From the NCBI GenBank assembly GCA_013388985.1, contig JACAEF010000055.1, forward strand, positions 1-37,201: a stretch of 37,201 nt of DNA, read 5' to 3'. Below, piece by piece: positions 4,401 to 34,800 of the stretch. Positions within the stretch are counted from its first letter, which is position 1; each line of letters opens with the position of its first letter. The stretch is from Rhodocyclaceae bacterium. GTDB taxonomy: Bacteria > Pseudomonadota > Gammaproteobacteria > Burkholderiales > Rhodocyclaceae. The notes below the pieces were generated by a model. That model was not told where the DNA came from. It worked only from the letters and a program-made list of their open reading frames with translations, and did no database searches. A program made the translations under genes and the position numbers.

Positions 4401-4944
4401 GAGCGTGCGCCGCGCGATGGCGATCCAGCTGATCATCAACCGCGAATGGGGCCTGGCGAAGAACGAGAACCCGAATCAGGGCAGCTTCATCATCGAGGAG
4501 CTGACCGATCTGGTCGAGGAAGCGGTGCTCAAGGAATTCGAGGCGCTGGCCGAACGTGGCGGCGTGCTCGGCGCGATGGAGACGGGTTATCAGCGCGGCA
4601 AGATCCAGGAGGAGTCGCTCTACTACGAGCAGAAGAAGCACGACGGCTCGCATCCGATCATCGGCGTCAACACCTTCCGCAATCCGCACGGCGATCCGAT
4701 TCCGCAGCATGTCGAGCTCGCCCGCTCGACCGAGGAGGAGAAGCAGTCGCAGATCCGGCGCCTGCGCGACTTCCAGCGGCGCCATGCGGCCGAATGTGGT
4801 CCGATGCTGGCGAAACTCAAGCAGACCGTGATCGACAACGGCAATGTCTTCGCCGTGCTGATGGATGCGGTGCGCGTCTGCTCGCTCGGGCAGATCAGCA
4901 CTGCCTTGTACGAGGTCGGCGGGCAGTATCGGCGGTCGATGTAA
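1453..4944 (+). CDS. icmF: Fused isobutyryl-CoA mutase IcmF (B12 domain, G-protein chaperone, mutase domain)
   Basis: This 1163-aa protein starts at ATG 1453, where [12 protein letters not shown] leads into the conserved [20 protein letters not shown]; an in-frame TTG at 1381 adds unrelated residues. The B12 domain carries DGH with H31 as the lower cobalt ligand. The MeaB-like GTPase P-loop [12 protein letters not shown] spans residues 206-217 (K215). The mutase barrel follows from about residue 565. IcmF interconverts isobutyryl-CoA and n-butyryl-CoA using adenosylcobalamin, and its G domain guards cofactor loading. Substrate-pocket residues fit isobutyryl-CoA rather than methylmalonyl-CoA: Phe668 (MFAGEG) replaces the mutase Tyr, and Gln812 (GQNTCIF) replaces the Arg that holds the carboxylate. 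The protein is about 70 aa longer than usual (~1090 aa). The excess lies at residues ~482-560, where two REP-like DNA repeats are translated in frame between the G domain and the mutase domain. Confidence 0.95.
2914..2983. repeat. Paired REP-like palindromes inside icmF
   Basis: Two head-to-head copies of one ~28-bp unit lie here. The left copy reads GTCCCGGCGGGCGCCGGGAT then CCAG. The right copy, read on the minus strand, is GTCGTCATTCCGGCGCAAGC then CGGAATCCAG. Each is itself a hairpin (CCGGCG...CGCCGG or CCGGC...GCCGG). This is the widespread proteobacterial REP-like family whose members read GTCATTCCCGC...GCGGGAATCCAG. The pair is translated in frame in icmF without a stop. Confidence 0.8.
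3061..3128. repeat. Second REP-like palindrome inside icmF (CCCTCTCCCC...GGAGAGGG type)
   Basis: The segment holds CCCTCTCCCCTCGTAGGAGA then GGGCTGGGGTGGGGG, and to its left an inverted GGGCCGGGGTGAGGGGG. It matches the well-known intergenic repeat class CCCTCTCCC...GGGAGAGGGCTGGGGTGAGGG. It lies about 80 bp after the first REP pair and is also read in frame (residues ~537-559, low-complexity Gly/Pro/Ser). Confidence 0.75.
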
Positions 4945-4968
4945 AAGTCGGCGCTGGCGGGACGGCAC
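4944..4968 (+). repeat. Dispersed 25-bp repeat, copy 1
   Basis: This is a perfect consensus copy: AAAG + TCGGCGCTGGCGGGACGGCA + C. Its first A is the last base of the icmF TAA stop, and it ends 3 bp before the stop of the convergent ABC gene. It shows no internal stem and no T-run, so it is not an obvious terminator. Confidence 0.9.
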
Positions 4969-4971
4969 CCC

Positions 4972-6660
4972 TCAGGTGGCCGTCTCGCGCAACCGCCAGT
5001 TGCCGTCGCCGGTCAGCTCCAGGAACTGGCGATGAAAACGCAGCAGCGTATCCCGGTGGCTGACGCTGATCAAGGTCGTGCCGGACGCGACCAGTTCCTG
5101 ATAGAGCGCGGCTTCGTTGCCGGGGTCGAGCGCGCTGGTCGCCTCGTCGAGGATCGCGTAACGCGGCCGTGACAGCAGCACCCGCGCGACGGCGATGCGC
5201 TGCTGTTCGCCGATCGAGAGCGTCTTGCTCCAGTCGCGTTCGCTATCCAGCCCGCCGCAGCGCTCGGCGAGCGTCGGTAGGTGCACACGCTCGAGCAGGC
5301 GCAGCAATTCGGTATCGCTGATCCGCCGGCCCGTTTCCGGATAGCACAATTGCTGGCGCAGGGTGCCGAGGACCATGTAGGGCTGCTGCGGCAGGAACAT
5401 CGTCTGCTCCTGCGGCGGGCGGACGATCCGGCCGCTGCCGCGGCTCCACAGGCCGGCGATCGCGCGCAGCAGCGAGCTCTTGCCCATGCCGCTGGCGCCA
5501 ACGATCATCAGGCTGGCGCCCGGTTCGATCGTCAGCGACAGCTCGTGCACGATGATGCGCTCGCCACCCGGCGTCTGCAGCGTGACGTGTTCGAGCGCGA
5601 GCTGCGGGCCCTCGACCACCTCGATCCGTTCCGCGCTGGGCAGTCGATGTTCCGGTGGCGCGGCGAGTACGCGCGCGAAGGTGTGCAATCGGTCGATGCC
5701 CGCCGCGAAGCGGCTCAGGCCTTCGAAGTTTTCGACGATCACGGAAAGCGCCGTGAGCACGGCGACGAAGGCGCCGCTCGCCTGCACGGCCTTGCCGACT
5801 TCGAGCTCGCCGGAGAGCACGTCCTGGGCGATCAGCGCGCTCGGCAGCACGATGGTGAGCAGGCTGAAGGCGTACTGGAACAGGTTGAGGAAAAGCTGGC
5901 TGCGGATCAGTCGGTTGAAATTGTCGAAGGCCGCGGCGAAGCGCCGCCGCACCTGCTGCGATTCCTGCTCCTCACCGCGATAGAAGGCGATCGCCTCGGC
6001 GTTCTCGCGCACGCGCACCAGGCCGAAGCGGAAATCGGCTTCGCGCTTGAGCTGCAGGAAGTTGAGGCCGAGCAGCACGCGGCCGAACACCGCCAGCGTG
6101 ACGGCGGTGCCGAAGAATGCGTAGGCGACGAGGAAATAGACCAGGCCATGCGAGATCGACCAGAGCACGACGCTGAAGGCGATGAGCTGCATCACCGAGC
6201 CGATCAGGATCAGCAGGTAGTAGAGCGAGCGCTGCGTGAAGGTGTTGATGTCTTCGGCGATGCGCTGGTCCGGATTGTCGATCCAGCTGTTGGCGTTCAG
6301 CGCATAGTAATGGTGCGTGGCGAAATAGCTGTCTAGGAAGCGGTCGGTCAGCCAGCGCCGCCAGAAGATGCCGAGCTTGTCGCGCACGTAGTAGTAGAAC
6401 GCATAAGCCGGCACGGCGACCAGCAGCAGGGCGAGGCTATAGCGGATGGCGTCCCAGAAGCGTTCTTCCTGACGGGCCGCCAGCGCAGAGGTGAATTCGC
6501 CGGTCTGCTCGTTGAGCAGCACCGCGATGCGCGCCTGGGCCAGCAGCAGGCCGAGCAGCAGGAGCAGCAGCGCCCACGCCCGGCCCTTTTCCTCTTCGCG
6601 CCAGTAAGGCGCCGCGAGCGACCAGAAGCGATGCCAGACCGGGCGATCGGTGAGGCGCAT
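4972..6660 (-). CDS. SbmA/BacA-like ABC transporter, fused permease and ATPase (YddA family)
   Basis: This 562-aa half-transporter begins at ATG 6660. Hydrophobic segments lie near residues 29-49, 75-92, 146-168, 170-195 and 257-277. The ATPase domain has Walker A GASGMGKSS (388-396), signature LSIGEQQR (481-488), Walker B YAILDE (501-506) and an H-loop SHR. The order membrane domain then ATPase, and the length, fit COG4178 proteins such as YddA and mycobacterial Rv1819c. Members of this group import cobalamin, bleomycin-like compounds or antimicrobial peptides. Its convergent position next to icmF, with a BtuF-like protein beyond, makes corrinoid transport an attractive inference, but a peptide substrate is equally possible. 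It converges on icmF with only the 25-bp repeat between the stops. Confidence 0.85.
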   Translation of the reverse strand: MRLTDRPVWHRFWSLAAPYWREEEKGRAWALLLLLLGLLLAQARIAVLLNEQTGEFTSALAARQEERFWDAIRYSLALLLVAVPAYAFYYYVRDKLGIFWRRWLTDRFLDSYFATHHYYALNANSWIDNPDQRIAEDINTFTQRSLYYLLILIGSVMQLIAFSVVLWSISHGLVYFLVAYAFFGTAVTLAVFGRVLLGLNFLQLKREADFRFGLVRVRENAEAIAFYRGEEQESQQVRRRFAAAFDNFNRLIRSQLFLNLFQYAFSLLTIVLPSALIAQDVLSGELEVGKAVQASGAFVAVLTALSVIVENFEGLSRFAAGIDRLHTFARVLAAPPEHRLPSAERIEVVEGPQLALEHVTLQTPGGERIIVHELSLTIEPGASLMIVGASGMGKSSLLRAIAGLWSRGSGRIVRPPQEQTMFLPQQPYMVLGTLRQQLCYPETGRRISDTELLRLLERVHLPTLAERCGGLDSERDWSKTLSIGEQQRIAVARVLLSRPRYAILDEATSALDPGNEAALYQELVASGTTLISVSHRDTLLRFHRQFLELTGDGNWRLRETAT

Positions 6661-6703
6661 CGCGAGGCCGGAGCGCGAAGGGTTCTGCCGCAGGGGATGC
6701 GGG

Positions 6704-7744
6704 TCAGTTGCCGGCCTTGATGCGCTCGACCACGGCGCTGGCGAATTCCAGCGTCGTGGCGCTGCCGCCCAAATCGCCGGTGCGCACCTTGTCTTCGTTG
6801 AGCGTCGCGTTGATCGCGCGCCGCAGACGGTTGCCGAGGTCGACGCGGCCGACGTGGTCGAGCATCATCGCCGCCGCGAGCATCAGCGCGATCGGGTTGG
6901 CGATGCCCTGGCCGGCGATGTCCGGCGCCGAGCCATGCACGGCTTCGAAGATCGCGGCATGGTCGCCGATGTTGGCGCCGGGCGCCATGCCCAGCCCGCC
7001 CACCAGCCCGGCGATCTCGTCGGAAAGGATGTCGCCGAACAGGTTGGTCGTCACCAGCACGTCGAAGTGCCAGGGATTCATCACCAGCTTCATCGCGCAG
7101 GCATCGACGATGCATTCCTCGAATTCGACCTGGCCCTTGTAGTCGCTCTCGTACATCTGGCGGGCGGTTTCGAGGAAGATGCCGGTGAGCGCCTTCATGA
7201 TGTTGGCCTTGTGCACCACGGTCACCTTCTTGCGGCCCTTCTTGAGCGCGTAGTCGAAGGCGAACTTGAGAATGTGCCGGCAGCCCTGGCGTGTGTTGAT
7301 GCCGGTGGCCATGCCCACCGCGTGCGGGTCGTCGTCGATCGGGATGAAGTGCTCGTAGCCCATGTAGAGGCCTTCGTTGTTCTCGCGCACCAGCACCAGG
7401 TCGATGTTCTCGTAACGGCCGCCGGGGATCAGCGTCAGGGCCGGCCGGACGTTCGCGTAGAGCTTGAATTCCTCGCGCAGGCGCACGTTCGACGAGCGGT
7501 AGCCGCCGCCGATCGGCGTTTCCAGCGGGCCCTTGAGCGCCAGCCGGGTCTTGCGGATGCTGTTCAGACACGCTGGCGGCAGCGGGTCGCCAACGGCGGC
7601 GACGCCGGCCGCGCCCGCGACCTGACGGTCCCAGACGAACGGGGCGCCGAGCGCGTCGAGCGCCATCACGGTGGCGGCGGTGATCTCCGGTCCGATGCCA
7701 TCGCCGGGGATCAGGGTGGCGGGAATGGGCTTGCTGGTCGTCAT
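6704..7744 (-). CDS. NAD-dependent isocitrate dehydrogenase (beta-decarboxylating dehydrogenase family)
   Basis: The product is 346 aa. ATG 7744 is preceded by GGAG with an 8-base gap, which fixes the start; upstream in-frame Met codons add unrelated residues. The protein has LIPGDGIGPEI at the N-terminus, the substrate loop YRSSNVRLREEFKLYANVRP, and EAVHGSAPDIAGQGIANP near the C-terminus. The Ser and Asn in the substrate loop are the isocitrate-type residues; isopropylmalate dehydrogenases have a different loop. The Asp-Ile after GSAP indicates NAD+ rather than NADP+ use. It would convert isocitrate to 2-oxoglutarate and CO2. It diverges from cimA across 169 bp. Because no leuB lies with leuCD here, a side role on methylmalate or isopropylmalate cannot be excluded, but the motif argues against it. 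Confidence 0.85.
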   Translation of the reverse strand: MTTSKPIPATLIPGDGIGPEITAATVMALDALGAPFVWDRQVAGAAGVAAVGDPLPPACLNSIRKTRLALKGPLETPIGGGYRSSNVRLREEFKLYANVRPALTLIPGGRYENIDLVLVRENNEGLYMGYEHFIPIDDDPHAVGMATGINTRQGCRHILKFAFDYALKKGRKKVTVVHKANIMKALTGIFLETARQMYESDYKGQVEFEECIVDACAMKLVMNPWHFDVLVTTNLFGDILSDEIAGLVGGLGMAPGANIGDHAAIFEAVHGSAPDIAGQGIANPIALMLAAAMMLDHVGRVDLGNRLRRAINATLNEDKVRTGDLGGSATTLEFASAVVERIKAGN

Positions 7745-7776
7745 GATTTTTTCTCCGTCTCCATGTGTGATTGTTT

Positions 7777-7794: not shown

Positions 7795-7830
7795 GGCACT
7801 TGCCCCGGGTCACCGGCGGCCAATGGCGAA

Positions 7831-7855
7831 AAACTCGGCGCTGACGGAACGGCAC
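7831..7855 (+). repeat. Dispersed 25-bp repeat, copy 2 (diverged)
   Basis: This copy reads AAAC + TCGGCGCTGACGGAACGGCA + C and has three mismatches to consensus. It lies in the divergent region between the dehydrogenase and cimA, about 60 bp before the cimA start, where promoter elements would be expected. Confidence 0.75.
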
Positions 7856-7913
7856 GACCCACCGGTAAAATGGTCGCTGCACCGCACAAATCCTTATTCG
7901 CAAAGCGTCTTCC

Positions 7914-9503
7914 ATGACACAAGTTTCGATCTACGACTCCACGCTGCGCGACGGCGCGCAGGCCCAGGGCGTTTCCTATTCGGTCGAGGACAAGCTCAAG
8001 ATCGTCGAGCATCTCGACGCGCTCGGCGTCGCCTGGATCGAGGCCGGCAATCCCGGCTCGAATCCGAAGGACCTGGAATTCTTCTCGCGCGCCGGCGCGC
8101 TCGAGCTCGAGCACGCCCGGCTGATCGCCTTCGGCGCGACACGCAAGGCCGGCCGGCCCGTCGCGGAGGATACGAATCTCCAGTCGCTGCTCGCCGCCGG
8201 CACCGCCGCGGTGGCGATTTTCGGCAAGAGCTGGGATGCCCAGGTGCGCGACGTGCTGCGCACCTCGCTGAGCGAGAACCTGGCGATGATCGGCGACACG
8301 GTGCGCTTCCTGAAAGCGCAGGGCAAGACCGTCGTCTTCGATGCCGAGCATTTCTTCGACGGCTGGAAGAGCCATGCCGAGTATGCGCTGAAGACGCTGG
8401 CGGCGGCCGCTGCGGCCGGGGCGGATTGCCTGTGCCTGTGCGACACCAATGGCGGTGCGTTTCCGGACGAGATCCACGAGATCACCCGCGCAGTCTGCGC
8501 GCGCTTTCCCGACCGCGTGATCGGCATCCACTGCCACAACGACGGCGAGATGGCGGTGGCGAATTCGATCCGCGCCGTGCAGGCCGGCGCGACGCAGGTG
8601 CAGGGCACGATCAACGGCCTGGGCGAGCGCTGCGGCAATGCCAATCTCTGCTCGATCATCCCCAACCTGCAGCTCAAGCTCGGCTACGAGTGCATCCCAG
8701 CGGGGGCGATGCGGCATCTGACCAATGTCGCGCGCGCGGTGAGCGAGATCGCCAACCTGCCGCTGAACGACAAGGCGCCCTACGTCGGCAGCCATGCCTT
8801 CGCCCACAAGGGCGGCATGCACATCGACGCGGTGGTGAAGAACCCGTCCTCCTACGAGCACATCGATCCGGAGCGGGTCGGCAACAGCCGCCGCGTGCTG
8901 ATGTCCGAGGTGGCGGGGCGCAGCACGCTGCTGGCGCGCATCAACGCCATCGACCCGACGCTCACCAAGGATTCGCCGGAGACGAGGAAGATCATCGACA
9001 AGCTCAAGACGCTCGAGCACGAGGGCTACCAGTTCGAGGCGGCCGAGAGCTCCTTCGATCTGGTCGTGCGCAAGCTGCTCGGCCGCTACCGGCCATTCTT
9101 CGAGCTGGTCGAATTCAAGGTGCTCACCAACGAGCCGGCGGTGAATGACGTCAATTCGTCGGTGATCATCAAGGTGCGTGTCGGCGAGCAGGAGGTGCTC
9201 ACCGTCGCGGAAGGCGACGGCCCGGTGAATGCGCTCGACAAGGCGGCCAGGAAGGCGCTCGAGCGGCTCTATCCAGCGATCGGCGAAGTGCGCCTGACCG
9301 ACTACAAGGTGCGCGTGCTCGATTCGGACAAGGCTTCCGCCGCCAAGGTGCGCGTGCTGATCGAGTCGAGCGACGGACGCGAGCGCTGGACCACCATCGG
9401 CGTGTCGACGGACATCATCAACGCCTCGTGGCAGGCGCTCGTCGATGCGATGGAGGTCAAGCTGATCCGCGACCGGGAACGCCAGGCCGCCGTGCTGCCA
9501 TGA
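7914..9503 (+). CDS. cimA: (R)-Citramalate synthase
   Basis: This 529-aa enzyme belongs to the LeuA/HMG-CoA-lyase-like family. The N-terminus IYDSTLRDGAQAQGVSYSVE holds the catalytic Arg-Asp pair. The metal-binding HCH motif is at 206-208 (IHCHNDGE), followed by GTINGLGERCGNANL. A C-terminal LeuA-type allosteric domain lies after about residue 390. Length and the early LRDGAQAQG place it with long CimA proteins rather than LeuA. It condenses acetyl-CoA and pyruvate to citramalate, opening the threonine-independent route to 2-oxobutyrate and isoleucine. LeuC and LeuD, encoded just downstream, catalyse the next isomerisation. The stop overlaps the next gene's start (ATGA), so the two are co-translated. 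No strong Shine-Dalgarno precedes the ATG. Confidence 0.93.
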   Translation: MTQVSIYDSTLRDGAQAQGVSYSVEDKLKIVEHLDALGVAWIEAGNPGSNPKDLEFFSRAGALELEHARLIAFGATRKAGRPVAEDTNLQSLLAAGTAAVAIFGKSWDAQVRDVLRTSLSENLAMIGDTVRFLKAQGKTVVFDAEHFFDGWKSHAEYALKTLAAAAAAGADCLCLCDTNGGAFPDEIHEITRAVCARFPDRVIGIHCHNDGEMAVANSIRAVQAGATQVQGTINGLGERCGNANLCSIIPNLQLKLGYECIPAGAMRHLTNVARAVSEIANLPLNDKAPYVGSHAFAHKGGMHIDAVVKNPSSYEHIDPERVGNSRRVLMSEVAGRSTLLARINAIDPTLTKDSPETRKIIDKLKTLEHEGYQFEAAESSFDLVVRKLLGRYRPFFELVEFKVLTNEPAVNDVNSSVIIKVRVGEQEVLTVAEGDGPVNALDKAARKALERLYPAIGEVRLTDYKVRVLDSDKASAAKVRVLIESSDGRERWTTIGVSTDIINASWQALVDAMEVKLIRDRERQAAVLP

Positions 9504-10126
9504 GCTTCGCCACCTGGTGGCTGTATGTCGCGATGGTGTTCGTGATTTCCGCGACGCCCGGCCCCAACATGCTGCTGGTGATGGTGAGCGGGGCGCGCCA
9601 CGGCTTTCGCGCGGCCATGGCCACCATGGCTGGCTGCCTGACGGCGCTGCTCGGCATGATGAGCCTTTCCGCCGCCGGCCTCAGTGCCATCCTGCAGACC
9701 TTCCCGATGGTCTTCGATGCCTTGCGACTGGTCGGGGCGGCCTACCTGGCCTGGCTGGGCATCCAGCTCTGGCGCGCGCCGGCGGGGGCGACCGACATGC
9801 CAAGTGATGCAGCCCTGCCGCAAAGCACGCCGGCACAGCGCTTCCGCCAGGGATTCCTGGTTGCGACGAGCAACCCGAAAGCCATCCTCTTCGCCGCCGC
9901 CTTTTTCCCGCAGTTCATCGATCCGGCGCAACCACAGCTAATGCAGTTCGTCATCCTGCTGCTCACCTTCGTCGTCATCGAGGTGAGCTGGTACGCGATC
10001 TATGCCGCCGGCGGGCAGCGCATCACCATGCAGCTGCGCAAGCCGGCGGTGCTGAAGTGGTTCAACCGCGCGACCGGCGGCATCTTTGTCGGCTTCGCCC
10101 TGCTGATGGCCGACATCCGCAAGTAA
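9500..10126 (+). CDS. LysE/RhtB-family amino-acid exporter
   Basis: This 208-aa membrane protein starts at ATG 9500, overlapping the cimA stop by 4 bases. The family motif ATPGPNMLLVMVSGARHGFR lies near the N-terminus, and TSNPKAILFAAAFFPQFID marks the second half. About six hydrophobic helices can be seen, as expected for RhtB/LysE exporters that use the proton gradient. Coupling to cimA suggests export of a branched-chain amino acid or its precursor, possibly as overflow relief, but the substrate is not shown by the sequence. Its TAA stop shares a base with the dispersed repeat. Confidence 0.88.
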   Translation: MSFATWWLYVAMVFVISATPGPNMLLVMVSGARHGFRAAMATMAGCLTALLGMMSLSAAGLSAILQTFPMVFDALRLVGAAYLAWLGIQLWRAPAGATDMPSDAALPQSTPAQRFRQGFLVATSNPKAILFAAAFFPQFIDPAQPQLMQFVILLLTFVVIEVSWYAIYAAGGQRITMQLRKPAVLKWFNRATGGIFVGFALLMADIRK

Positions 10127-10150
10127 AAGTCGGCGCTGGCGGGACGGCAG
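10126..10150 (+). repeat. Dispersed 25-bp repeat, copy 3
   Basis: AAAG + TCGGCGCTGGCGGGACGGCA is perfect; only the 25th base differs (G for C). As in copy 1, its first A is the last base of a TAA stop, here of the LysE-type gene. It ends 7 bp before the stop of convergent rluA. Confidence 0.9.
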
Positions 10151-10899: not shown

Positions 10900-12309
10900 A
10901 TGTCCGGCAAGACGCTCTACGACAAACTCTGGGATTCGCACGTCGTCCGCGAGGAGGACGATGGCACCTGTCTGATCTACATCGACCGGCACCTGGTGCA
11001 TGAGGTGACCAGCCCGCAGGCCTTCGAGGGGCTGCGCCTGGCCGGCCGCAAGCCCTGGCGTGCCCAGAGCGTGGTCGCCACCGCCGACCACAACACGCCG
11101 ACCGACCACTGGGAGCGCGGCATCGAGGATCCGATCTCGCGCCTGCAGGTCGAGACGCTCGACCAGAACATCCACGATTTCGGCGCGCTGGCGTATTTCC
11201 CGTTCAAGCACCCCAACCAGGGCATCATCCACGTCATCGGCCCGGAAAACGGCACCACGCTGCCGGGGATGACGATCGTCTGCGGCGACAGCCATACCTC
11301 GACGCACGGCGCCTTCGGCGCGCTGGCGCATGGCATCGGCACCTCCGAAGTCGAGCACGTGCTCGCCACGCAGACGCTGGTGGCCAAGAAGTCCAAGCGC
11401 ATGCTGATCGAGGTGAAAGGCAAAGTCGGCGCTGGCGTGACGGCAAAGGACATCGCGCTGGCGATCATCGGCCGGATCGGCACCGCAGGCGGCACCGGTT
11501 ACGCGATCGAATTCGGCGGCGAGGCCGTGCGCGACCTGTCGATGGAAGGCCGCATGACCGTCTGCAACATGGCGATCGAGGCCGGCGCGCGCGCCGGGCT
11601 GGTGGCGCCGGACGAAAAGACTTTCGAATACCTGAAGGGCCGCCCCTTCGCCCCGAAGGGCGAAATGTGGGACAAGGCGCTCGCCTACTGGAAGACGCTC
11701 AAGTCCGATGAGGATGCCGTGTTCGATGCCGTCGTCACGATCGACGCGGCGGGCATCGAGCCGCAGGTGACCTGGGGCACCTCGCCCGAGCAGGTGGTGC
11801 CGGTCGGCGGCAAGGTGCCGAATCCGGCGCAGGAGAAGGACCCGGTCAAGCGTGCGAGCATCGAGCGCGCGCTGCAATACATGGGGCTGAAAGCCGACAC
11901 GCCGATCACGGCGATTGCCGTCGACAAGGTTTTCATCGGCAGCTGCACCAACTCGCGCATCGAGGATCTGCGCGCCGCCGCCGCGGTGGTGCGCGGCAAG
12001 CGCAAGGCGGCCAACGTCAAGCAGGTGCTGGTGGTGCCCGGCTCCGGGCAGGTGCGGCGCCAGGCCGAGGCCGAGGGTCTGGACAAGGTCTTCATCGAAG
12101 CCGGCTTCGAATGGCGCGAGCCCGGCTGCTCGATGTGCCTGGCGATGAACGCCGACCGGCTGGAGCCGGGCGAACGCTGCGCCTCGACCTCGAACCGCAA
12201 TTTCGAAGGCCGCCAGGGCGCCGGCGGCCGCACCCACCTCGTCAGTCCGCAGATGGCCGCCGCCGCCGCCATCGCCGGCCACTTCGTCGATATCCGGAGT
12301 TTTTCATGA
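10900..12309 (+). CDS. leuC: 3-isopropylmalate / (R)-citramalate dehydratase large subunit
   Basis: This 469-aa aconitase-family subunit starts at ATG 10900 with [16 protein letters not shown], the normal LeuC start. The 4Fe-4S cluster ligands are Cys349 (GSCTNSR), Cys410 and Cys413 (PGCSMC). With LeuD it isomerises 2-isopropylmalate to 3-isopropylmalate, and citramalate to methylmalate when paired with CimA. The TGA stop overlaps the leuD ATG. Codons for KVGAGVTA at 11422-11446 match the dispersed repeat in 23 of 25 bases. E. coli LeuC has GKAAPGITAKD at the same place with the same length, so this is not an insertion. Confidence 0.96.
11422..11446 (+). repeat. Dispersed 25-bp repeat, copy 4, within leuC coding sequence
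   Basis: AAAG + TCGGCGCTGGCGTGACGGCA + A has two differences from consensus. It is read in frame as KVGAGVTA, part of the conserved (G)VTAKD segment of LeuC. It may be a true repeat copy, a gene-conversion tract, or chance similarity in a fixed protein motif. Confidence 0.55.
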
Positions 12310-14339: not shown

Positions 14340-14364
14340 ACCTTCGGCGCTGGCGGGACGGCAC
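14340..14364 (+). repeat. Dispersed 25-bp repeat, copy 5
   Basis: The 20-base core TCGGCGCTGGCGGGACGGCA plus the following C is perfect (14344-14364); the leading AAAG is replaced (ACCT). It abuts the palindromic element on its left and lies 9 bp from the stop of the minus-strand methyltransferase gene. Confidence 0.85.
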
Positions 14365-14990: not shown

Positions 14991-16907
14991 TCAGCTCCCG
15001 GTGCTCGCGAGAATGTGAGGCTTGATGCGCCCGACGACGTGCATTTCGCAGGCGCGGCAATCGAAAGTGAGCGTCAGGCGCTCGTTGCCCTGGATCAGCG
15101 TCATCGGCTCGGCGCGGATTTGTCCCTGCACGCCGGTGATGCCCTTGGCCTGGTGCGGGCAGAGGCTGAAGGCGTGACGCAGGCAGTGCTTGGTGATCAT
15201 CAAGGAGACCTCGCCGGTCTCCTCGTGTGCCTCGAAGGCCGCGGCGATCGTGCGCACGCCGTGCTTCTCATAGAAGCGCCGCGCCGCGCCGTTGAAGACG
15301 TTGGCGAGGTAGGAAAGCGCGGTGTCGGGATAAGGCGTCGGCGGCTCGACGGCGGGCCGGCGCTGGGGGCGCACATAGGCTTCGCGTCGCGCGGCTTCGA
15401 GCGCGGCCACCGCCTCGCGGCGCAGCGCATTGGCGGCCGAGCTGGGCACGAAGAACGGCTGCGACCAGACGACCGCGAACTCCCGCAAGGCAAAGTCGGT
15501 GCCGCCGAGACGGCTCAAGTGCGCCTTCAGGGTCTCGGCCGCACGTTCCGGCTGTCGCGCCGGCTGCTTGGCGAGCGTAAGCCTCGCCGTGGCGCAGATG
15601 CCGTCCGTGTCGGTCAGCGTCAGCGCGAAGCCGTCCGGGGTTTCGGAGAAGACGGCATCGACGCCGATGCGCCGCGTGGCGGAATCCTTCGCCAGCGCCT
15701 GCTCCCAGGCCTGATCGCGGTTGCGGTTGAGGTAGATCCCGGGCTTCAAGCCGGCGAGCTGGTCAGGCGGCTCGTTCGGCCAGATGCGCCAGCGGCCGGG
15801 GCCGATCTTCTCCACCCGGTTCGCCTGCGTGCCGACGGCCTGCCGCTTGTGGAGCCAGGACAGGCCGTCGCCATTGGCGAGCGTCTCGCCCGTCTCGATC
15901 TCGAAGCTGTCGGCGGCGACCTGCGTCACCCTGCCGATCGGCAGGCCGACGAAGGCGGGCGTGTCGAAGGCGGTGATGTGCGCGGGATCCCGGCTGCGGC
16001 CGTGGGTGAAGTAGTCGGTGCTGCCACGGTGGAAAGTCTTGTCCGGGTGAGGCTCGAACTTCAGCGTGACCTTGCCGCTGGAGGCCGGTGCCAGCTCGGG
16101 ATGCTGTGCGAAGAGGGCGTCGAGCAGTTGCCGGTAATGGCCGGTGATGTTCTTCACATAGCCGACGTCCTTGTAGCGGCCCTCGATCTTGAAGCTTTGC
16201 ACGCCGGCTTGAATCAAGGGCAGCAGGTTCGCGCTCTGGTCGTTGTCTTTGAGCGAGAGCAGATGCTTTTCGAAGGCGACGATGCGCCCCTGGCTGTCCT
16301 GCAGCGTGTAGGGCAGACGGCAGGCCTGCGAGCAATCGCCGCGATTGGCGCTCCGACCGGTCTGCGCGTGGCTGATGTAGCACTGGCCGGAGAAGGCGAC
16401 GCACAGCGCGCCATGCACGAAATGTTCGACGACCACGTCGTCCGGCAGCGCGGCGCGGATGGCGGCGATTTCCGTGAGGCTCAGTTCGCGGGCGAGTACC
16501 AGTTGCGAGAAGCCGCAGTCGGCGAGAAAGCGCGCCTTCTCGGGTGTGCGGATGTCGCACTGCGTCGAGGCGTGCAGGTCGATCGGCGGCAGGTCGAGTT
16601 CCAAGAGTCCCATGTCCTGCACGATCAGCGCATCGACCCCGGCGTTCCAGCAGTCCCAGGCGAGGCGTCGCGCGGCTTCGAGCTCGTCGTCGCGCAGGAT
16701 GGTGTTGAGCGCGACATAGATGCGGGCGTGGAAGCGGTGGGCGAAGTCGACCAGCGCGGCGATGTCGGCGATCGGGTTGCCGGCCTTCTCGCGCGCGCCG
16801 AAGGCCGGCCCGCCGATATAGACGGCGTCGGCGCCATGCAGGATCGCCTGGCGGCCGATCTCGGCGGTGCGGGCGGGAGCGAGCAGTTCGATGCGGCGGA
16901 AAGTCAT
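14991..16907 (-). CDS. rlhA: U32-family 23S rRNA C2501 hydroxylase
   Basis: This 638-aa protein has the U32 start IELLAPARTAEIGRQAILHG followed by ADAVYIGGPAFGAR, and the Cys-rich signature HGALCVAFSGQCYISHAQTG then RSANRGDCSQACRLPY. A long middle and C-terminal region carries more Cys pairs (KHCLRHAFSLCPHQ and FDCRACEMHVVG). This length and double Cys pattern match RlhA (YdcP, 653 aa in E. coli), which hydroxylates 23S rRNA C2501 using an iron-sulfur cluster and prephenate-dependent chemistry. Shorter U32 proteases and UbiU/UbiV lack the long extension. ATG 16907 lies directly against dispersed-repeat copy 6, which replaces most of the expected leader. Confidence 0.82.
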   Translation of the reverse strand: MTFRRIELLAPARTAEIGRQAILHGADAVYIGGPAFGAREKAGNPIADIAALVDFAHRFHARIYVALNTILRDDELEAARRLAWDCWNAGVDALIVQDMGLLELDLPPIDLHASTQCDIRTPEKARFLADCGFSQLVLARELSLTEIAAIRAALPDDVVVEHFVHGALCVAFSGQCYISHAQTGRSANRGDCSQACRLPYTLQDSQGRIVAFEKHLLSLKDNDQSANLLPLIQAGVQSFKIEGRYKDVGYVKNITGHYRQLLDALFAQHPELAPASSGKVTLKFEPHPDKTFHRGSTDYFTHGRSRDPAHITAFDTPAFVGLPIGRVTQVAADSFEIETGETLANGDGLSWLHKRQAVGTQANRVEKIGPGRWRIWPNEPPDQLAGLKPGIYLNRNRDQAWEQALAKDSATRRIGVDAVFSETPDGFALTLTDTDGICATARLTLAKQPARQPERAAETLKAHLSRLGGTDFALREFAVVWSQPFFVPSSAANALRREAVAALEAARREAYVRPQRRPAVEPPTPYPDTALSYLANVFNGAARRFYEKHGVRTIAAAFEAHEETGEVSLMITKHCLRHAFSLCPHQAKGITGVQGQIRAEPMTLIQGNERLTLTFDCRACEMHVVGRIKPHILASTGS

Positions 16908-16908
16908 G

Positions 16909-16933
16909 AAAGTCGGCGCTGGCGGGACGGCAC
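16909..16933 (+). repeat. Dispersed 25-bp repeat, copy 6
   Basis: This is a perfect consensus copy. On the minus strand it fills the gap between the hicA stop (16935) and the rlhA start (16907), leaving one or two bases at each side, so it must cover any rlhA ribosome-binding site. Confidence 0.9.
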
Positions 16934-16934: not shown

Positions 16935-17114
16935 TCAATCGCCGCCAAGCTTCTTGAGGATCGATTTCGCCAGATACTCGTTGATTTCGCTGTGTCGCGG
17001 GACGGGCTGAGACTGCCGAGTTTTCGGATTGGTGTACCAGTCGTGACGACCGCCATTACGCACCAGCACACAACCCATTCGTTCGAGCAGGCGAATCAGA
17101 TCGCGCCGCTTCAT
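16935..17114 (-). CDS. hicA: HicA-family mRNA interferase toxin
   Basis: This is a 59-aa basic protein, MKRRDLIRLLERMGCVLVRN..., with GGRHDWYTNPKTRQS and PVPRHSEINEYLAKSILKKL. HicA toxins are small double-stranded-RNA-binding-fold ribonucleases of about 60 aa with a conserved catalytic His after GG/GS (here His24 in GGRHDWY), and they cleave mRNA without the ribosome. The ATG overlaps the TGA of hicB (ATGA). The gene is shorter than most gene-calling cut-offs and easily missed. The order antitoxin-then-toxin is the reverse of classic hicAB. Confidence 0.85.
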   Translation of the reverse strand: MKRRDLIRLLERMGCVLVRNGGRHDWYTNPKTRQSQPVPRHSEINEYLAKSILKKLGGD

Positions 17115-17302
17115 GCGACCTGCAGTTCTTCCACTTTATGGACGAAAGGTACCTGGCCGGATTCGAGATCGACGAGCAGATCCTTGAGGTTCTCGATGAG
17201 TTCTGCCTTGCTGCTGCCCTGGGTCTGATAGTCGGGATATTCATTGAGATAGCCAATGAAGAAATCGCCGTCCTGCCAATAGGTGAATTTGAGCGTGCGC
17301 AT
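17111..17302 (-). CDS. hicB: HicB-family antitoxin, minimal form
   Basis: This 63-aa protein starts at ATG 17302: MRTLKFTYWQDGDFFIGYLN..., with EYPDYQTQGSSKAELIENLK then DLLVDLESG. This is the partial RNase-H-like HicB fold that binds and blocks HicA. The usual C-terminal helix-turn-helix or ribbon-helix-helix DNA-binding domain is absent, so it may not repress its own promoter. Upstream in-frame sequence to 17431 reads MPAFCASNMAASRSS and is not HicB-like. It is coupled to hicA by a 4-base overlap and lies 53 bp after the Crp/Fnr gene stop. Confidence 0.83.
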   Translation of the reverse strand: MRTLKFTYWQDGDFFIGYLNEYPDYQTQGSSKAELIENLKDLLVDLESGQVPFVHKVEELQVA

Positions 17303-24270: not shown

Positions 24271-24298
24271 CGGCGCTGGTGCCGTGCCGCCAGCGCCG
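24271..24298 (+). promoter_or_regulatory. Stem-loop between livK and livF, built on the dispersed repeat
   Basis: CGGCGCTGG (24271-24279), a 10-base loop, and CCAGCGCCG (24290-24298) form a perfect 9-bp GC stem. Half of the stem is repeat copy 7. A short T stretch (ACTTTGG) follows but no long T-run, so it looks more like an mRNA-stabilising or partial-termination stem that raises livK over livF than a full terminator. Confidence 0.55.
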
Positions 24299-24303
24299 AC
24301 TTT
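24279..24303 (-). repeat. Dispersed 25-bp repeat, copy 7 (reverse orientation)
   Basis: On the minus strand it reads AAAG + TCGGCGCTGGCGGCACGGCA + C, one mismatch from consensus and identical to copy 10. It lies between livK and livF; a partial inverted copy of its first half lies just to its left and creates the stem-loop. Confidence 0.85.
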
Positions 24304-26989: not shown

Positions 26990-28183
26990 ATGACGTCATC
27001 CGCCAGCCATGCAGCGGCCGGTCCGCTGGCCGGCCTGAAAGTCCTCGATCTCACGCGTCTCTTGCCCGGGCCGGTATGCACGCTGCATCTAGCCGATCTC
27101 GGCGCCGAGGTGATCAAGATCGAGGATCCCGGCGCGGGCGATTACGCGCGCACGATGGGACTGGGCGCCGCGCCGGGCGAAGATAGCTTCTTCTTCCGCC
27201 TCGTCAATCGCAACAAGCGCGGCCTGCGGCTCGATCTCAAGCAGGCAGCCGGCGTCGAGGTCTTCCTGCGTCTGGCGCGCGAGGCCGACGTGATCGTCGA
27301 GAGCTTCCGCCCCGGCGTCGTCGACAAGCTCGGCGTCGGCTACACGGCGGTGAAGGCGGTCAATCCACGCATCGTCTATTGCGCGATCACCGGCTACGGC
27401 CAGGACGGACCGTGGCGCGACCGCGCCGGCCACGATCTCAACTACCTCGCCACATCGGGCGTGCTCGACCAGATCGGCGCGGCAGGAGGGCCGCCGGCGA
27501 TTCCCAACCTGCAGATCGGCGATCTGCTCGGCGGCGCGCTCACCGCCGCGATGGGCATCCTCGCCGCGGTGATCGGCGCCCGGGCGACGGGCGAGGGACG
27601 CTATGTCGATGTGGCGATGACCGACGCCACCTTCGCGCATGCCTATTCCCCGTTGCTGTCGGTGCTGGCGCGTGGCAAGACGCTGCCGCGCGGCACGGAC
27701 GATCTCTCCGGCGGTCTGCCGGCTTACGGACTCTATCGCACACAGGATGGACGCTTCCTGGCGGTGGCTGCGCTGGAGCCCAAGTTCTGGAAAGTGTTTT
27801 GCGAGGCGATCGGCAAACCGGAACTGATTCCCTTCGGTCTGGCGCGCGGCGAGGATGGCGAACGCACGCGGCGTGAGCTCGAAGCGCTGTTCGCCCGCCA
27901 GCCGCTTGCCCATTGGGTGGCGTTGTTCGAGCAGGTCGATTGCGGCGTTACCCCGGTATTGACGTTCGACGAGGCGATGACGCATCCGCAACTGAAAGCG
28001 CGCGGCATGCTGCCCGAGATCGATGGCTTGCCGCAGTTCGCGCCGCCGCTGAAGATGAGCGGGGTGGAATTCGCGCTGCGGATGCCGGCGCCGAAAGTCG
28101 GCGCTGACGGCACGGCACTGCTGCGTGAGGCCGGCTATACGGCCGAGGAGATCGAAGCATTGCGCGCCGCCGGCGTGATTTGA
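26990..28183 (+). CDS. CaiB/BaiF family, alpha-methylacyl-CoA racemase-like
   Basis: This 397-aa protein from ATG 26990 begins GPLAGLKVLDLTRLLPGPVC, the family III CoA-transferase/AMACR start. His148 (GHDLNY) and Asp178 (QIGDLLGG) are 30 residues apart, exactly as the catalytic pair His126/Asp156 of mycobacterial Mcr. This favours 2-methylacyl-CoA epimerisation over CoA transfer. Racemases of this kind are needed for beta-oxidation of branched side chains of sterols, bile acids or isoprenoids. The C-terminal KVGADGTALLREAGYTAEEI overlaps dispersed-repeat copy 8. A TTG 24 bases earlier is in frame but less likely as start. Confidence 0.82.
   Translation: MTSSASHAAAGPLAGLKVLDLTRLLPGPVCTLHLADLGAEVIKIEDPGAGDYARTMGLGAAPGEDSFFFRLVNRNKRGLRLDLKQAAGVEVFLRLAREADVIVESFRPGVVDKLGVGYTAVKAVNPRIVYCAITGYGQDGPWRDRAGHDLNYLATSGVLDQIGAAGGPPAIPNLQIGDLLGGALTAAMGILAAVIGARATGEGRYVDVAMTDATFAHAYSPLLSVLARGKTLPRGTDDLSGGLPAYGLYRTQDGRFLAVAALEPKFWKVFCEAIGKPELIPFGLARGEDGERTRRELEALFARQPLAHWVALFEQVDCGVTPVLTFDEAMTHPQLKARGMLPEIDGLPQFAPPLKMSGVEFALRMPAPKVGADGTALLREAGYTAEEIEALRAAGVI
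28094..28118 (+). repeat. Dispersed 25-bp repeat, copy 8, in the racemase-like gene
   Basis: AAAG + TCGGCGCTGACGGCACGGCA + C has two mismatches. It is read in frame as KVGADGTA, near the C-terminus, where family members commonly have a similar P-x-x-G-A-D/H-T segment of equal length. It could therefore be chance or conversion rather than insertion. Confidence 0.55.
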
Positions 28184-28193: not shown

Positions 28194-29099
28194 ATGCACA
28201 CCGCACTGACGCTGCTGCCCGATTTCGCCCTGATCCTGCTCGGTTTCGCGCTGCGACGTGGGATGGCGCTGGGCGACCACTTCTGGACCGGGGTGGAAAA
28301 GCTCGTCTATTTCGTGCTGTTCCCGGCGCTGCTGTTCAATGCGCTCACCAAAGCGCCGCTGACATTCTCGGCGGTACCGTTGCTCGGCACCGGTGCTGCG
28401 GCGATGGCGGGCGCGATGGCGTTGGCCCTCGCCGCCCGGCCATTGTTTCCGCTCACGCCGATCTCTTTCGCGTCGCAATTCCAGTGCGCCTTCCGTTTCA
28501 ATACCTATATCGGTCTCGCGGTGGCGGCCAAACTGCACGGCGCGGCGGGGATCGCCGCGATGGGATTGCTCGCCGGGGCGATGGTGCCATTCGCCAACCT
28601 CGTCGCGGTCGGCATGCTGGCGCGTCATGGCGAGACCTCGGTGTGGCGCGAGCTGGCGAAGAATCCGCTGTTCCTCGCCACGCTCGTCTCGCTCGGTTGG
28701 AATCTGGCGGGTCTGCCGGTGCCGGCGCCGGTCGGCGCTTTCTTGAGCCGGCTCGCCGAAGCGGCGATCGCTTTGGGCCTCTTGGCGGTTGGCGCCGCCC
28801 TCAAGCTGCGCGGCGCGCTGGGGCACGATGGCCGCGGCGCGGCCGGCTATTTCCTGGCGGTGAAGCTGCTGGCGATGCCGGTCATCGCCTGGCTGGTCGC
28901 GCGCTGGGTCGGGCTTGCCGGGGTGTATTTCGATGTCGCGCTGGCGTTCGCGGCGCTGCCGACGGCCTCGTCGGCCTACATCCTCGCGCAGCGCATGGGC
29001 GGCGACGGTGCGCGCGTCGCCTGGCTGATCTCGGCCAGCACGCTGCTGGGAATGGTGACGCTACCGCTGTGGCTCGCCCTGAGGGTTTTTCTTGCGTGA
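28194..29099 (+). CDS. AEC-family (auxin efflux carrier-like) permease
   Basis: This 301-aa membrane protein from ATG 28194 has about ten hydrophobic segments in two halves, starting PDFALILLGFALRRGMALGD and holding VEKLVYFVLFPALLFNALTK, the typical AEC first half. The end SAYILAQRMGGDGARVAWLI then SASTLLGMVTLPLWLAL is also typical. Bacterial members export or import dicarboxylates such as malate or malonate. It starts 10 bp after the racemase-like gene stop, probably in the same transcript. Its last 39 bases overlap the convergent phaM gene. Confidence 0.87.
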   Translation: MHTALTLLPDFALILLGFALRRGMALGDHFWTGVEKLVYFVLFPALLFNALTKAPLTFSAVPLLGTGAAAMAGAMALALAARPLFPLTPISFASQFQCAFRFNTYIGLAVAAKLHGAAGIAAMGLLAGAMVPFANLVAVGMLARHGETSVWRELAKNPLFLATLVSLGWNLAGLPVPAPVGAFLSRLAEAAIALGLLAVGAALKLRGALGHDGRGAAGYFLAVKLLAMPVIAWLVARWVGLAGVYFDVALAFAALPTASSAYILAQRMGGDGARVAWLISASTLLGMVTLPLWLALRVFLA

Positions 29100-29516
29100 G
29101 CGTTTCGGCCTGGCAGGGGGCGTTTCGGTCTGGGAGGCTGGCTCGGAAGTCGGCGCTGGCGGGACGGCACCCTTGATGAACTCCCAGGGCATCTGCCAGG
29201 CGGATGGATCGAGGAAGGGATTGGCGGCTGGTGCCTGCTCGGCCTCCTGCGCGGCCTCCTGCGCCGCCTGACCCATCTGCTGAAAGGCCAGCAGCGTGGC
29301 GCGCTGCATTTCGAGGCCCTGAATGGTCATCTGCAGCAGGTTCAGGTTCGACTTGAGCCAGCCCTCGACGGCCTTCAGGTCGGCGATGCGCTTGCCGAGC
29401 TCGTCGGTGTCGACGGTGGGCGCGACCATCCCGGGCAGTGGAAAGCCCATGTTGCTCCACAGGTTCTTGACGAATTCCAGCGGGTCGCCGGAACTGGGAT
29501 TGAACGCGTTCGTCAT
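29061..29516 (-). CDS. phaM: PhaM-like polyhydroxybutyrate granule-associated protein
   Basis: This 151-aa protein starts at ATG 29516. The N-terminus DPLEFVKNLWSNMGFPLPGM then VAPTVDTDELGKRIADLKAV followed by EGWLKSNLNLLQMTIQGLEM matches the conserved PhaM domain. The tail KRSRKKNPQGEPQR is basic, as in Cupriavidus PhaM, which activates PHB synthase PhaC and ties granules to the nucleoid through a Lys/Ala-rich tail. The Cupriavidus protein is longer. Between domain and tail, KGAVPPAPTSEP is encoded by dispersed-repeat copy 9. The stop lies inside the convergent AEC gene. It diverges from a response-regulator gene across a palindrome. Confidence 0.82.
   Translation of the reverse strand: MTNAFNPSSGDPLEFVKNLWSNMGFPLPGMVAPTVDTDELGKRIADLKAVEGWLKSNLNLLQMTIQGLEMQRATLLAFQQMGQAAQEAAQEAEQAPAANPFLDPSAWQMPWEFIKGAVPPAPTSEPASQTETPPARPKRSRKKNPQGEPQR
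29146..29170 (+). repeat. Dispersed 25-bp repeat, copy 9, in phaM
   Basis: GAAG + TCGGCGCTGGCGGGACGGCA + C has one mismatch. It is antisense to phaM and read in frame there as AVPPAPTS, in the linker before the basic tail. Confidence 0.88.
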
Positions 29517-30955: not shown

Positions 30956-31041
30956 GTCCGTGCGCTTCCGTGGTGTGCGGGACGGATTATTCTCGAACGG
31001 AGCCGCGGGGGATGGCCGGAAATGCAGCGGAATCGCCAGCC

Positions 31042-31824
31042 TTATCCGTCCGGGACGGGGTGATAGAGAAACAGCCGCGTATTCCGGCGATCGGCCACCT
31101 CGACCGTGGCGTCGGCCGGCTGGTCGGGCACCGCGAAGCTGTTGCTGACCAGCAGGGCGCCCGGCGACATCTCGCGTACGGCCTTCGCCCACAACCTGGG
31201 CATCGGCGCGGGCGAAAGGAACGCATAGACCAGCGCATGGCCGCCCAGCGGCGCCTGCCAGAAATCGCCGCGCCGGATCGTGACATTGGCGAGTCCGAGG
31301 GTGCGCAGCCGGGCGACGAGCCAGGGAAGCGGCGCATGCTCGACGCCGGTGAATAGGCAGTCGGGCCGGACGATCGCCAGCCGGCGCAGCAGCCCGCCGT
31401 CGCCGCAGCCCAGGTCGAGGACGCGGCAGGGCACGGTGGGCAGCAGTTTCAGCAGTGCCTCGGCGGTCGCGGCATTGGTCAGGTAGAGCGGCACGCGGCT
31501 CCGATCCGTGCGCCAGAAGACGAGCAGCAACAGCACGAAGGCGGCGAGGAACCAGCCGGGCGCGATGTCGAACCCCTGCACGATCACCACCAGCGGCATG
31601 AAGGCGAGGTGGATCGGCAGCCACCAGCGCGGCGAGCGCAGCTTCAGCGCGATCAGCGCCGCCAGCCCGCCCTGCAGTAGCGCGATGAGCAGCGGAATGC
31701 GCAGGAAATCGGCCGTGGAGATGCGGCTCAGTGCGGCGACGAACAGCAGCGTCGCGGCGCCGCCGCCCAGCTGCGCGAGCAGCGCGGTACGTAGCGGTGG
31801 CGGTTCAGCCGGCGAGTTTTGCAC
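31042..31824 (-). CDS. Membrane-anchored class I SAM methyltransferase
   Basis: This 260-aa protein is best started at GTG 31824, with GGGAAGG just upstream; longer frames run through the oxidoreductase C-terminus. Three or four hydrophobic helices come first (LLAQLGGGAATLLFVAALSR, FLRIPLLIALLQGGLAALIA, APGWFLAAFVLLLLVFW). A Rossmann methyltransferase domain follows with VLDLGCGDGGLLRRL and VTIRRGDFWQAPLGG. The start overlaps the oxidoreductase stop by 20 bases, so it is co-transcribed with it. The substrate is unknown; the membrane anchor suggests a lipid or membrane protein. Confidence 0.78.
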   Translation of the reverse strand: MQNSPAEPPPLRTALLAQLGGGAATLLFVAALSRISTADFLRIPLLIALLQGGLAALIALKLRSPRWWLPIHLAFMPLVVIVQGFDIAPGWFLAAFVLLLLVFWRTDRSRVPLYLTNAATAEALLKLLPTVPCRVLDLGCGDGGLLRRLAIVRPDCLFTGVEHAPLPWLVARLRTLGLANVTIRRGDFWQAPLGGHALVYAFLSPAPMPRLWAKAVREMSPGALLVSNSFAVPDQPADATVEVADRRNTRLFLYHPVPDG

Positions 31825-34800
31825 GCGCGCCTTCCCGTTGGTGCCGTGCCGCCAGCGCCGACTTTTCGCGCACGTGGCCGAAGCCGCGCACCTGCTCGGG
31901 CCAGCCGGAAAGTTCGAGCGCGGCGGGAAGCCTGCTGGCATCGAGCCGCGCGAGGATCAGATCGAGATCGTCCTCGTATTCCGCGAGCAACTGCCGGGCG
32001 AGACGGCGTTCCGGGCTGCGCGCGAAAATGTCCCAGCGCGTGCCGCGCAACTTCCTCATCCTGGCCAGCCAGCGGAAAACCATCATCATCCATGGACCGT
32101 AGCGGCGCTTGACGATGACGCCGGTATTGGGATCGGGCCGCGCCAAGAGCGGTGGGGCGAGATGGAAATCAAGACGATAGTCGCCCTCGAACTGCGCCGC
32201 GATGCGGTCGAGGAAATCGGTCTCGGCGTAGAGGCGCGCGACCTCGTATTCATCCTTGACCGCCAAGAGCTTGTAGTAGTTGCACGCGACGCGGGCGGCG
32301 AGCGCCTCGTTTGCCGCGGGGTGGCTGCGAATCTGCTCGACGCGCGCGCGGTAGCGTCCGGCCAGCGCGGCGTCCTGATAATCGGTGAGCCGCCGCACGC
32401 GGTCGGCGAGCAGTTCGTCCAAAGTCGACGCCGGGCCGTCCCCAGCCGACGCCCCCCCTGTGGTGGGCAGCGAGCCGGGTTTGCGAGCGAGGGGGGCCAA
32501 TAATTTCGGCGCTGACGATACGGCACGGCTGGGCAGCAGAGCGGCAATGCCGGCCGGATCGTGGGCGGCGGCGCGTCCCCAGCGGAAGGCGCGCCGGTTC
32601 AACGCCACATCCGCGCCGTTGAGCTCGATCGCCCGCAAGAGCGCCGCTTCGCTCAGCGGAACGAGCCCGCGCTGCCAGGCGAAGCCGAGCAGCAGGATGT
32701 TGGCGTAGATCGCGTTGCCCATCAGCCGTGTGGCCAGCGTCGTGGCGTCGAGGGCGTCGAAGGCGGCGCCGCCGATCGTCGTGGCAAGCGCGGCTTCGAT
32801 CGCGTCGAGCGGAAAACGCCAGTCCGGATCGGCGGTGAATTCGGCCGTGGGTGTCGCCGCGGCATTGATCGCCGCGCGCGTGCGGCCGGCCCGCATCTTC
32901 GAGAGGGCCTCGGGCGAGGCGCTGACGATCGCATCGCCGCCGAGGATCGCATCGGCCTCGCCCGTGGCGATGCGCGGCGCGTGAATCGCGGCTGGGTCGT
33001 CGCAGAGGCGCACGTGCGAGAACACCGCGCCGCCCTTCTGCGCGATGCCGGTCATGTCGAGCACGGAGACACCCTTGCCGTCGAGGTGTGCGGCCATGCC
33101 GATCAAGGCGCCGAGCGTGACGACGCCGGTGCCGCCGACGCCGGTGATCAGGATGTTGAAGGGCCGGGCTGTTTTTTCCAGATTCGGCTCTGGCGGGACG
33201 GCAGGTTCGAGGTCGAGCGCGCTGCCCAAGCGCTGCCGGCCGCCCTCGATCGTCACGAAGCTCGGGCAAAAGCCCTTCAGGCACGAATAATCCTTGTTGC
33301 AGGCCGACTGGTCGATCGCTCGCTTCGTGCCCAGCGGCGTCTCGACCGGCACGACGGCGAGGCAGTTCGATTGCACCGAGCAATCGCCGCAGCCTTCGCA
33401 GACCTCCTCGTGAATGAACACCCGCAGCGACGGGTCGGGCAGCCGGCCGCGTTTTCGGCGGCGGCGCTTCTCGGCCGCGCAGGTCTGGTCGAAGATGATC
33501 GCCGAGACGCCGGGACACTGGCGCATCTCCTTCTGGATCGCATCGAACTCGTCGCGATGCCTGACGAGCACGCCATGCGGCAGCTCGCTCTTGCGCCATG
33601 CTCTCGGCGTGCCATCGGTGACGACGACGATGTGGCCGACACCCTCGGCCTTGAGCTGCTGCGCGATCCGCGGCACGGTGAGGTTGCCCTCGACCGGCTG
33701 GCCGCCGGTCATCGCCACGGCGTCGTTGTAGAGGATCTTGTAGGTGATGTTGACCTTCGCCGCGACGGCGGCGCGCAGCGCGAGGATGCCCGAGTGGAAC
33801 CAGGTGCCGTCGCCGATATTGACGAAGACGTGCTGCGTTTCGGTGAAGGGCGCCTGGCCGATCCACGCCGCGCCTTCGCCGCCCATCTGCGCGAAGGTGT
33901 CGGTGCGCCGATCCATCCACGTCACCATGAAATGGCAGCCGATGCCGGCGAGCGCGCGCGAGCCCTCCGGCACGCGCGTCGAGGTGTTGTGCGGGCAGCC
34001 GGGGCAGAACCACGGCAGGCGCTTGGCCGGCAGCACGGGCAGCGGGCGCTGCGCGCAGGCTTCGATCCGCGTCAGATGCTCGCGCAGCCGTGGATGGTCG
34101 GGCAGGATGCGCGCGAGCACCCGGGCGATCTGCGTCGGCGTCAGTTCGCCGCTGGAGGGCAAGAGTGGCTGTCCGGTCTCGTCGAACTTGCCGAGGATGC
34201 GCGGCCGCTGCGGCAAGGGATAGAGCGCGTCCTTGAGCTGGGTCTCGATCAGCGCGCGCTTTTCCTCGACGACGAGGATCGTCTCGAGGCCGGATGCGAA
34301 GCGGCGCATCGTTTCGGTGTCGAGCGGCCAGACCAGGCCGATCTTGATCACGCGCAGGCCGAGTGCTACGGCGAGTGCATCGTCGATGCCGAGCAGTTCG
34401 AGCGCCTGGCGCACGTCGAGATAACTCTTGCCGGCCGCGGCGATGCCCAGCCGCGCATTGGGTGAGTCGATCACCGTGCGGTTAAGCTGATTCGCGCGGC
34501 AATAGGCCAGCGCGGCGGCGAGCTTGGTTTCGATGAGGCGCGCTTCCTGCGCCAGCCGCTCGTCCGGCCAACGGATGTTGAGGCCGTCGGGCGGCAGAGT
34601 GAAATCGGAGGGCATGACGATGGCAACGCGGGCCGGATCGATATCGACGGCGGCCGAGGATTCGATCGTGTCGGCGACGGTCTTGAAGCCGACCCAGCAG
34701 CCCGAGTAGCGCGACAGCGCCCAGCCGTGCAGGCCGAGGTCGAGCGTGTCCTGGATGCCGGAGGGCGCGAGGATCGGCATCGCCGCGGCGATGAAGGCCT

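Follow-up and report, generated by a model that had tools for sequence, protein, structure and literature searches.

The repeat in the window and in its genome

The stretch of DNA considered here (the window) comprises 37,201 nucleotides of contig JACAEF010000055.1 from the Rhodocyclaceae bacterium assembly GCA_013388985.1. Among genes that include an IcmF-like gene, a citramalate synthase gene, leuC, ABC transporter genes, and a CoA-transferase-like gene, it carries a short dispersed repeat that we discuss below as a candidate DNA uptake sequence. When judged by a 20-base core with up to three mismatches, the repeat is present at 12 places in the window (table 1), against a mean of 0.03 and a maximum of 1 in 100 dinucleotide shuffles. 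Scored over 25 bases, two of these copies are perfect and the other ten differ at one to five positions. The coordinates, strands, and mismatch range given in a preliminary description of the window are therefore confirmed, as are its statements that the copies are far too many for chance and that two of them begin with a stop codon's final base (those at 4944 and 10126). A borderline thirteenth copy with five mismatches is found at 15492-15516. At gathering scores, Rfam reports three tRNAs only in the window, and the repeat matches no Rfam family.

Table 1. Copies of the repeat in the window, with mismatches counted over the 25-mer
Copy	Coordinates	Strand	Context
Perfect 25-mer	4944..4968	+	First base is the last stop-codon base of the IcmF-like gene 1453-4944 (NCBIfam NF045497)
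3 mismatches	7831..7855	+	Divergent gap ahead of citramalate synthase gene 7914-9503
1 mismatch	10126..10150	+	Convergent gap; first base doubles as the final base of a stop codon
2 mismatches	11422..11446	+	Within leuC (10900-12309)
3 mismatches, core perfect	14340..14364	+	Convergent gap
Perfect 25-mer	16909..16933	+	Between U32-like gene 14991-16907(-) and 17111-17302(-)
1 mismatch	24279..24303	-	Between two co-directional ABC transporter genes; partial inverted half follows
2 mismatches	28094..28118	+	Within CoA-transferase-like gene; G016, of the same genus, has its own dialect at the same place
1 mismatch	29146..29170	+	Within called gene 29061-29516(-)
1 mismatch	31841..31865	-	Within called gene 31805-35275(-)
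5 mismatches	32502..32526	+	Within called gene 31805-35275(-)
4 mismatches	33180..33204	+	Within called gene 31805-35275(-); counterpart in the closed genome G017 nearer consensus

The repeat is not limited to the 28 kb in which those twelve copies had been counted. A count over the window's own genome (G000; 2,896,965 bases in 156 contigs), as the preliminary description had proposed, yields 511 copies with up to two mismatches, 263 forward and 248 reverse, against none for the reversed word. The repeat unit is a 25-mer with sharp boundaries, AAAGTCGGCGCTGGCGGGACGGCAC. In a sample of 435,202 bases from this genome (20 stretches and the window), copies with zero to six mismatches number 32, 29, 24, 13, 15, 34, and 201, against 0, 0, 0, 0, 2, 29, and 175 for the reversed word; this spectrum is that of a class of near-perfect copies, back to background at four to five mismatches. 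In the same sample, conservation starts at the first A and stops at position 25, and the flanks are almost free of signal. Within the 25-mer, TCGGCGCTG and CGGCA are almost invariant; the tolerant positions are 4 and 18 (G in 66%), 17 (74%), and 25 (C in 78%), with mild tolerance at 14-16.

Distribution among genomes and dialects

The first search set comprised 61 genomes, that is, the window's own and 60 relatives. Among the 18 other members of its genus, 17 carry 121-576 copies and one, G005, carries none. Two of 18 genomes from other genera of the family are also rich (G019 with 232 copies and G026 with 348), the remainder having zero to four, and no genome among 24 from other families exceeds four. 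Across 297 genomes of the family, the frame shared by the dialects described below, AAAGTCRG-N10-ACGGC, reaches at least 50 copies in 46 genomes by our count from the results table, all of which fall in nine genera (g1, g2, g9, g11, g47, g62, g70, g88, and g90). Genera beyond these nine have 0-13 copies, and the reversed controls gave 0-7 over the 297 genomes. Rich genera also include poor members, with shared-frame counts of 0 (G005), 4 (G194), 2 (G124), 16 (G277), 35 (G290), and 47 (G305); G016, likewise a member of a rich genus, has eight and carries a dialect of its own. G005, G194, and G124 may be natural losses or misplaced genomes, and they could reveal the receptor.

In an order-wide count of 399 genomes, 13 of them from the family, none of the 386 outside it has more than four copies except G384 with 16. 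The copies listed for G384 include both AAAGTCAGTC and AAAGTCGGCGCTGG types, possibly as a result of transfer or contamination. The exact core occurs in at least 105 stretches of DNA, and the 80 titles listed among these are mostly Rhodocyclaceae, Sulfuritalea, and Sulfurisoma assemblies; the rest are some Proteobacteria and isolated entries, for instance Tepidimonas and Lysobacterales. From the titles listed, the family that carries the motif appears to be Rhodocyclaceae.

The motif comes in genome-specific dialects that share one 25-bp frame. The dialect of the window's genus is AAAGTCGGCGCTGGCGGGACGGCAC, whereas in G019, G026, G079, G141, and G187 (4-23 sampled sites each) the word ends in ACGGCG. 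G028 is poor in the core, and de novo counting of 11-mers in this genome gave AAAGTCAGTC...ACGGCG in the same frame, so that its dialect consists of AAAGTCAGTC, a variable middle, and ACGGCG (15 sites). A further dialect, AAACTCGGCGCYGGCGRGGCGGCG, is found in G016, which belongs to the window's own genus: with up to two mismatches, 347,303 bases of G016 hold 47 copies of the G016 consensus versus 4 of the own-genus one. Under one strict pattern, the G016 type has 308 copies in G016 and at most two in each of the 296 other genomes of the family. Alignments of G016 with own-type DNA gave 26 rows, some of which represent one place against two genomes. Both dialects occupy the same place in six rows (five of them ungapped), the G016 type alone is present in eight, and the other alone in 12; position 28094 of the window is an example of a place that holds both. 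Because rows with both dialects occur together with rows that have only one, sites turn over in addition to being rewritten in place.

Spacing, origin, and placement of the copies

Placement was determined with a simple codon-model gene caller made for this analysis, in samples from the window's genome and from the closed genome G017. In the former, 53 of 98 sites lie within genes, 31 are outside them, and 14 span a gene end, 92.6% of the DNA being coding; the corresponding figures for G017 are 59, 15, and 8 of 82 sites and 92.4%. Genic sites use all six strand and frame combinations in the first sample and five in G017, which rules out a protein motif as their source. Sites are more evenly spaced than chance. 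The coefficient of variation of the spacing is 0.65 versus a random 0.88 in G000 and 0.65 versus 0.89 in G017, and gaps shorter than 1 kb number 5 and 5 versus 17.5 and 13.4. Neighboring sites in the two samples share a strand in 68 cases and are on opposite strands in 70.

Even spacing, a sharply bounded 25-bp profile, and a spread over the whole genome are also what would be seen if the 25-mer were the binding site of an intracellular chromosome-organizing or nucleoid protein, with selection keeping copies at roughly regular intervals. A chromosome-organizing motif was among the meanings suggested in the preliminary description, and it survives as a rival that we judge unlikely. With the replichores of G017 divided at 1.3 Mb by GC skew, 46 of 82 sites are oriented with the replichore (p 0.32; 25/14 and 22/21 in the two halves), so that no replichore polarity was found and a polar motif is ruled out for this genome, and copies are present in 21 of its 22 sampled stretches. 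Furthermore, the joint rewriting of hundreds of sites in one species is hard to explain without some form of drive, and the motif is absent or nearly absent from G005, G194, and G124, which belong to rich genera. KOPS, Chi, and matS-type chromosome motifs are likewise short DNA words with a genome-wide or regional distribution, but they are shorter and either polar or regional, whereas no polarity was found for the 25-mer in G017.

The motif arises by point substitution and not as an inserted unit. In comparisons with orthologous sites at other loci (no more than 97% identical, over alignments of 300 bases or longer), the motif is shared in 366 of 511 site pairs, absent without a gap in 95, absent with small or irregular gaps in 48, and opposite 20 or more gap columns in two. 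These pairs include loci L001-L008, which overlap the samples; when sites are counted singly and these eight are left out, 162 sites remain. For 51 of them at least one ortholog is empty and ungapped, one has a clean gap of 20-30 bases, 83 carry the motif in all comparisons, and 19 show irregular gaps only. The leuC site (11422), for instance, is retained by 13 of 16 aligned relatives and replaced without gaps in three. Several intergenic sites gave no alignment at all, and the gap test thus covers mainly coding sites. An origin by substitution was shown with the same test for the uptake signal sequence (USS) of Haemophilus (PMC1626085) and is also described for published USS and DNA uptake sequences (DUS) in PMC1939737.

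Substitution origin and dialect turnover would equally be produced by a drive that writes copies inside the cell and not through uptake; biased gene conversion and recombination at the motif are examples. Chi and similar recombination hotspots are shorter words, and we know of no intracellular drive that uses an asymmetric 25-bp word at such density; an explanation of this kind strikes us as very improbable. The preliminary description had further suggested a mobile unit resembling repetitive extragenic palindromic (REP) elements, and the 25-mer is indeed, as are REP elements and those of REP-associated tyrosine transposases (RAYT), a short, dispersed, and strongly homogeneous repeat. Nevertheless, it is not palindromic, it frequently lies within genes, its flanks are not conserved, and the mostly ungapped empty sites do not support mobile insertion and rule out an insertion element. 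Strong homogeneity and a single clean gap would speak for an element copied into new places, which we regard as having next to no probability.

Sites are concentrated in convergent gaps (16 in 3,435 bases of the G000 sample, versus four in 9,495 bases of divergent gaps; p about 1e-6), as would be expected where DNA is promoter-free. They are also enriched just 3' of stop codons, and 11 sense copies in the G000 sample have the stop's final base as their first, which fits the leading A's of the motif itself. This enrichment would favor a transcript 3'-end signal or terminator, another suggestion of the preliminary description, yet sites near stops face both ways (22 sense and 19 antisense in G000, 10 and 11 in G017), inverted partners are rare, and over half of the sampled sites are genic, so that this suggestion was not borne out and an RNA signal is scarcely credible.

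A candidate uptake sequence

We consider it probable that a lineage within Rhodocyclaceae has in the 25-mer a DNA uptake sequence for self-recognition. Hundreds of sites have arisen by substitution in permissive DNA, and in one species they have been replaced as a set; this suggests drive via gene exchange, and biased uptake in transformation is the known process that gives such a result (PMC1939737). We hypothesize that the type IV pilus uptake machinery includes a DNA receptor that binds extracellular DNA at the 25-mer, that DNA bearing it would be taken up preferentially, and that recombination of tagged DNA would carry chance near-matches to fixation by molecular drive. Copies would then accumulate through point substitution wherever protein and promoter constraints permit, and a receptor of altered specificity would rewrite the motif genome-wide and so give rise to dialects. 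A DNA-uptake motif was one of the meanings raised in the preliminary description; substitution origin, dialects, placement, and spacing all support it, short of proof, and by analogy the pattern appears to act like an uptake sequence.

The competence genes of these bacteria are compatible with this proposal. ComEC was detected in 36 of 36 genomes tested and pilin genes in 10 of 10, motif-free genomes being included in both cases, and these genes therefore permit uptake but do not prove it. The ComP_DUS family is found in 53 of 61 and 30 of 32 genomes regardless of the motif; as a Pfam marker of the motif it failed, being present almost everywhere. In G017, a minor pilin resembling ComP_DUS is encoded near 1,712,931. 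Motif-free G005 shares its main pilin clusters with the motif-rich genomes compared. A small pilin cluster of G017, G028, and G005 had no match that we could see in G194, which is one case only.

Several points weigh against an uptake sequence. ComEC, pilins, and the ComP_DUS family all occur in motif-free genomes as well, and a comparison of the pilins of rich G017 and G028 with those of poor G005 and G194 yielded no candidate receptor that separates them. An organizing protein could favor even spacing too. Inverted motif pairs number one among 317 sites in samples of seven genomes; in Neisseriaceae genomes with DUS dialects, such pairs are described as occurring in high numbers in all (PMC3630211). 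Inverted pairs at terminators are an accessory trait of Neisseriaceae DUS and lie outside the definition of an uptake sequence. At about one per 5 kb, the 25-mer is also about five times sparser than the Haemophilus USS, for which PMC7811141 gives a spacing of ~1 kb. Lastly, depletion from mobile DNA amounts to one prophage stretch and is not significant alone, the probability of no copy being 0.024 per stretch. The only full inverted pair in the samples, at L206 11851-11883 in G028, consists of two overlapping inverted copies that form a hairpin with TTTT directly after it and may be a terminator.

The stretch in question is the sole copy-free one of the 22 sampled from G017. It is prophage and insertion sequence DNA, with genes for tape-measure, tail, and lysozyme proteins and for transposases. 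Terminase families were matched in 2 of 17 genomes and VirB4 in 2 of 23. In 74 viral contigs related through the tape-measure protein of the G017 prophage, no copy with up to three mismatches is present in 1,230,945 bases, a count that says little because the hosts of these contigs were not identified. The exact 25-mer was found in five viral contigs. In L009 (IMG/VR IMGVR_UViG_3300009945_000063), a direct repeat of about 316-385 bp occurs five times within positions 700-2400, with one motif copy per repeat (at 887, 1203, 1519, 1835, and 2220), flanked by GCCTAAC / GTTAGGC arms that are reminiscent of integron attC sites; this may be a cassette array in which each cassette bears the tag. Other repeated words were seen in passing. 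L221, L223, and L224 of G023, from a motif-free genus, contain closely paired TGTGGGAGCGGC words that have palindromic, GC-rich parts and look similar to REP elements, and one 20-kb stretch of G036 (among L201-L205) has an 11-mer family, AAACTAAGCCC and its neighbors, 22 times in a single 2-kb bin, possibly a CRISPR array.

Self-specific uptake is described in PMC12616744 as known in two families only, Neisseriaceae and Pasteurellaceae, whose species show strong preferences and live mainly in mucosal environments according to PMC7811141 (2020). Like the 25-mer, the DUS of Neisseriaceae, which is read by the minor pilin ComP, occurs in hundreds to thousands of copies on both strands, in genes as well as gaps, and in family-wide dialects that have been published (PMC3630211, PMC12616744). 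It differs in having 12 bp instead of 25 bp and a described CTG core to which the 25-mer is unrelated, and the 25-mer belongs to another family, is spaced as given above, and almost lacks inverted pairs. With the Pasteurellaceae USS, the 25-mer shares an origin by substitution and not insertion (PMC1626085) and a long extended motif, which PMC7811141 models at 31 bp, so that its own length is no record; two types of USS are known, which is a further likeness. The Hin-USS core, AAGTGCGGT, as quoted in PMC12616744, is unlike the 25-mer, nearly all positions of which are strict with few exceptions, and the host is of another class by taxonomy.

Among open-licence PMC papers, we found no report of an uptake sequence for Rhodocyclaceae, Rhodocyclales, or Sulfuritalea and none of the motif strings, and broader searches likewise showed none among the papers listed. 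We are inclined to think, with somewhat better than even confidence, that Rhodocyclaceae represent a third independent origin of self-specific uptake, with a 25-bp word, strict at all but a few positions, that exists in at least four dialects (one of them private to a species) and that sister genomes have lost or never acquired. If true, a third case elsewhere would be a test of why uptake sequences evolve at all. The dialects, the private dialect in one species, and the motif-free genomes within rich genera make up a ready system in which to search for the receptor, and the same natural series is suited to the study of how specificity switches. The dialects would, on the same condition, predict gene-exchange partners among these bacteria.

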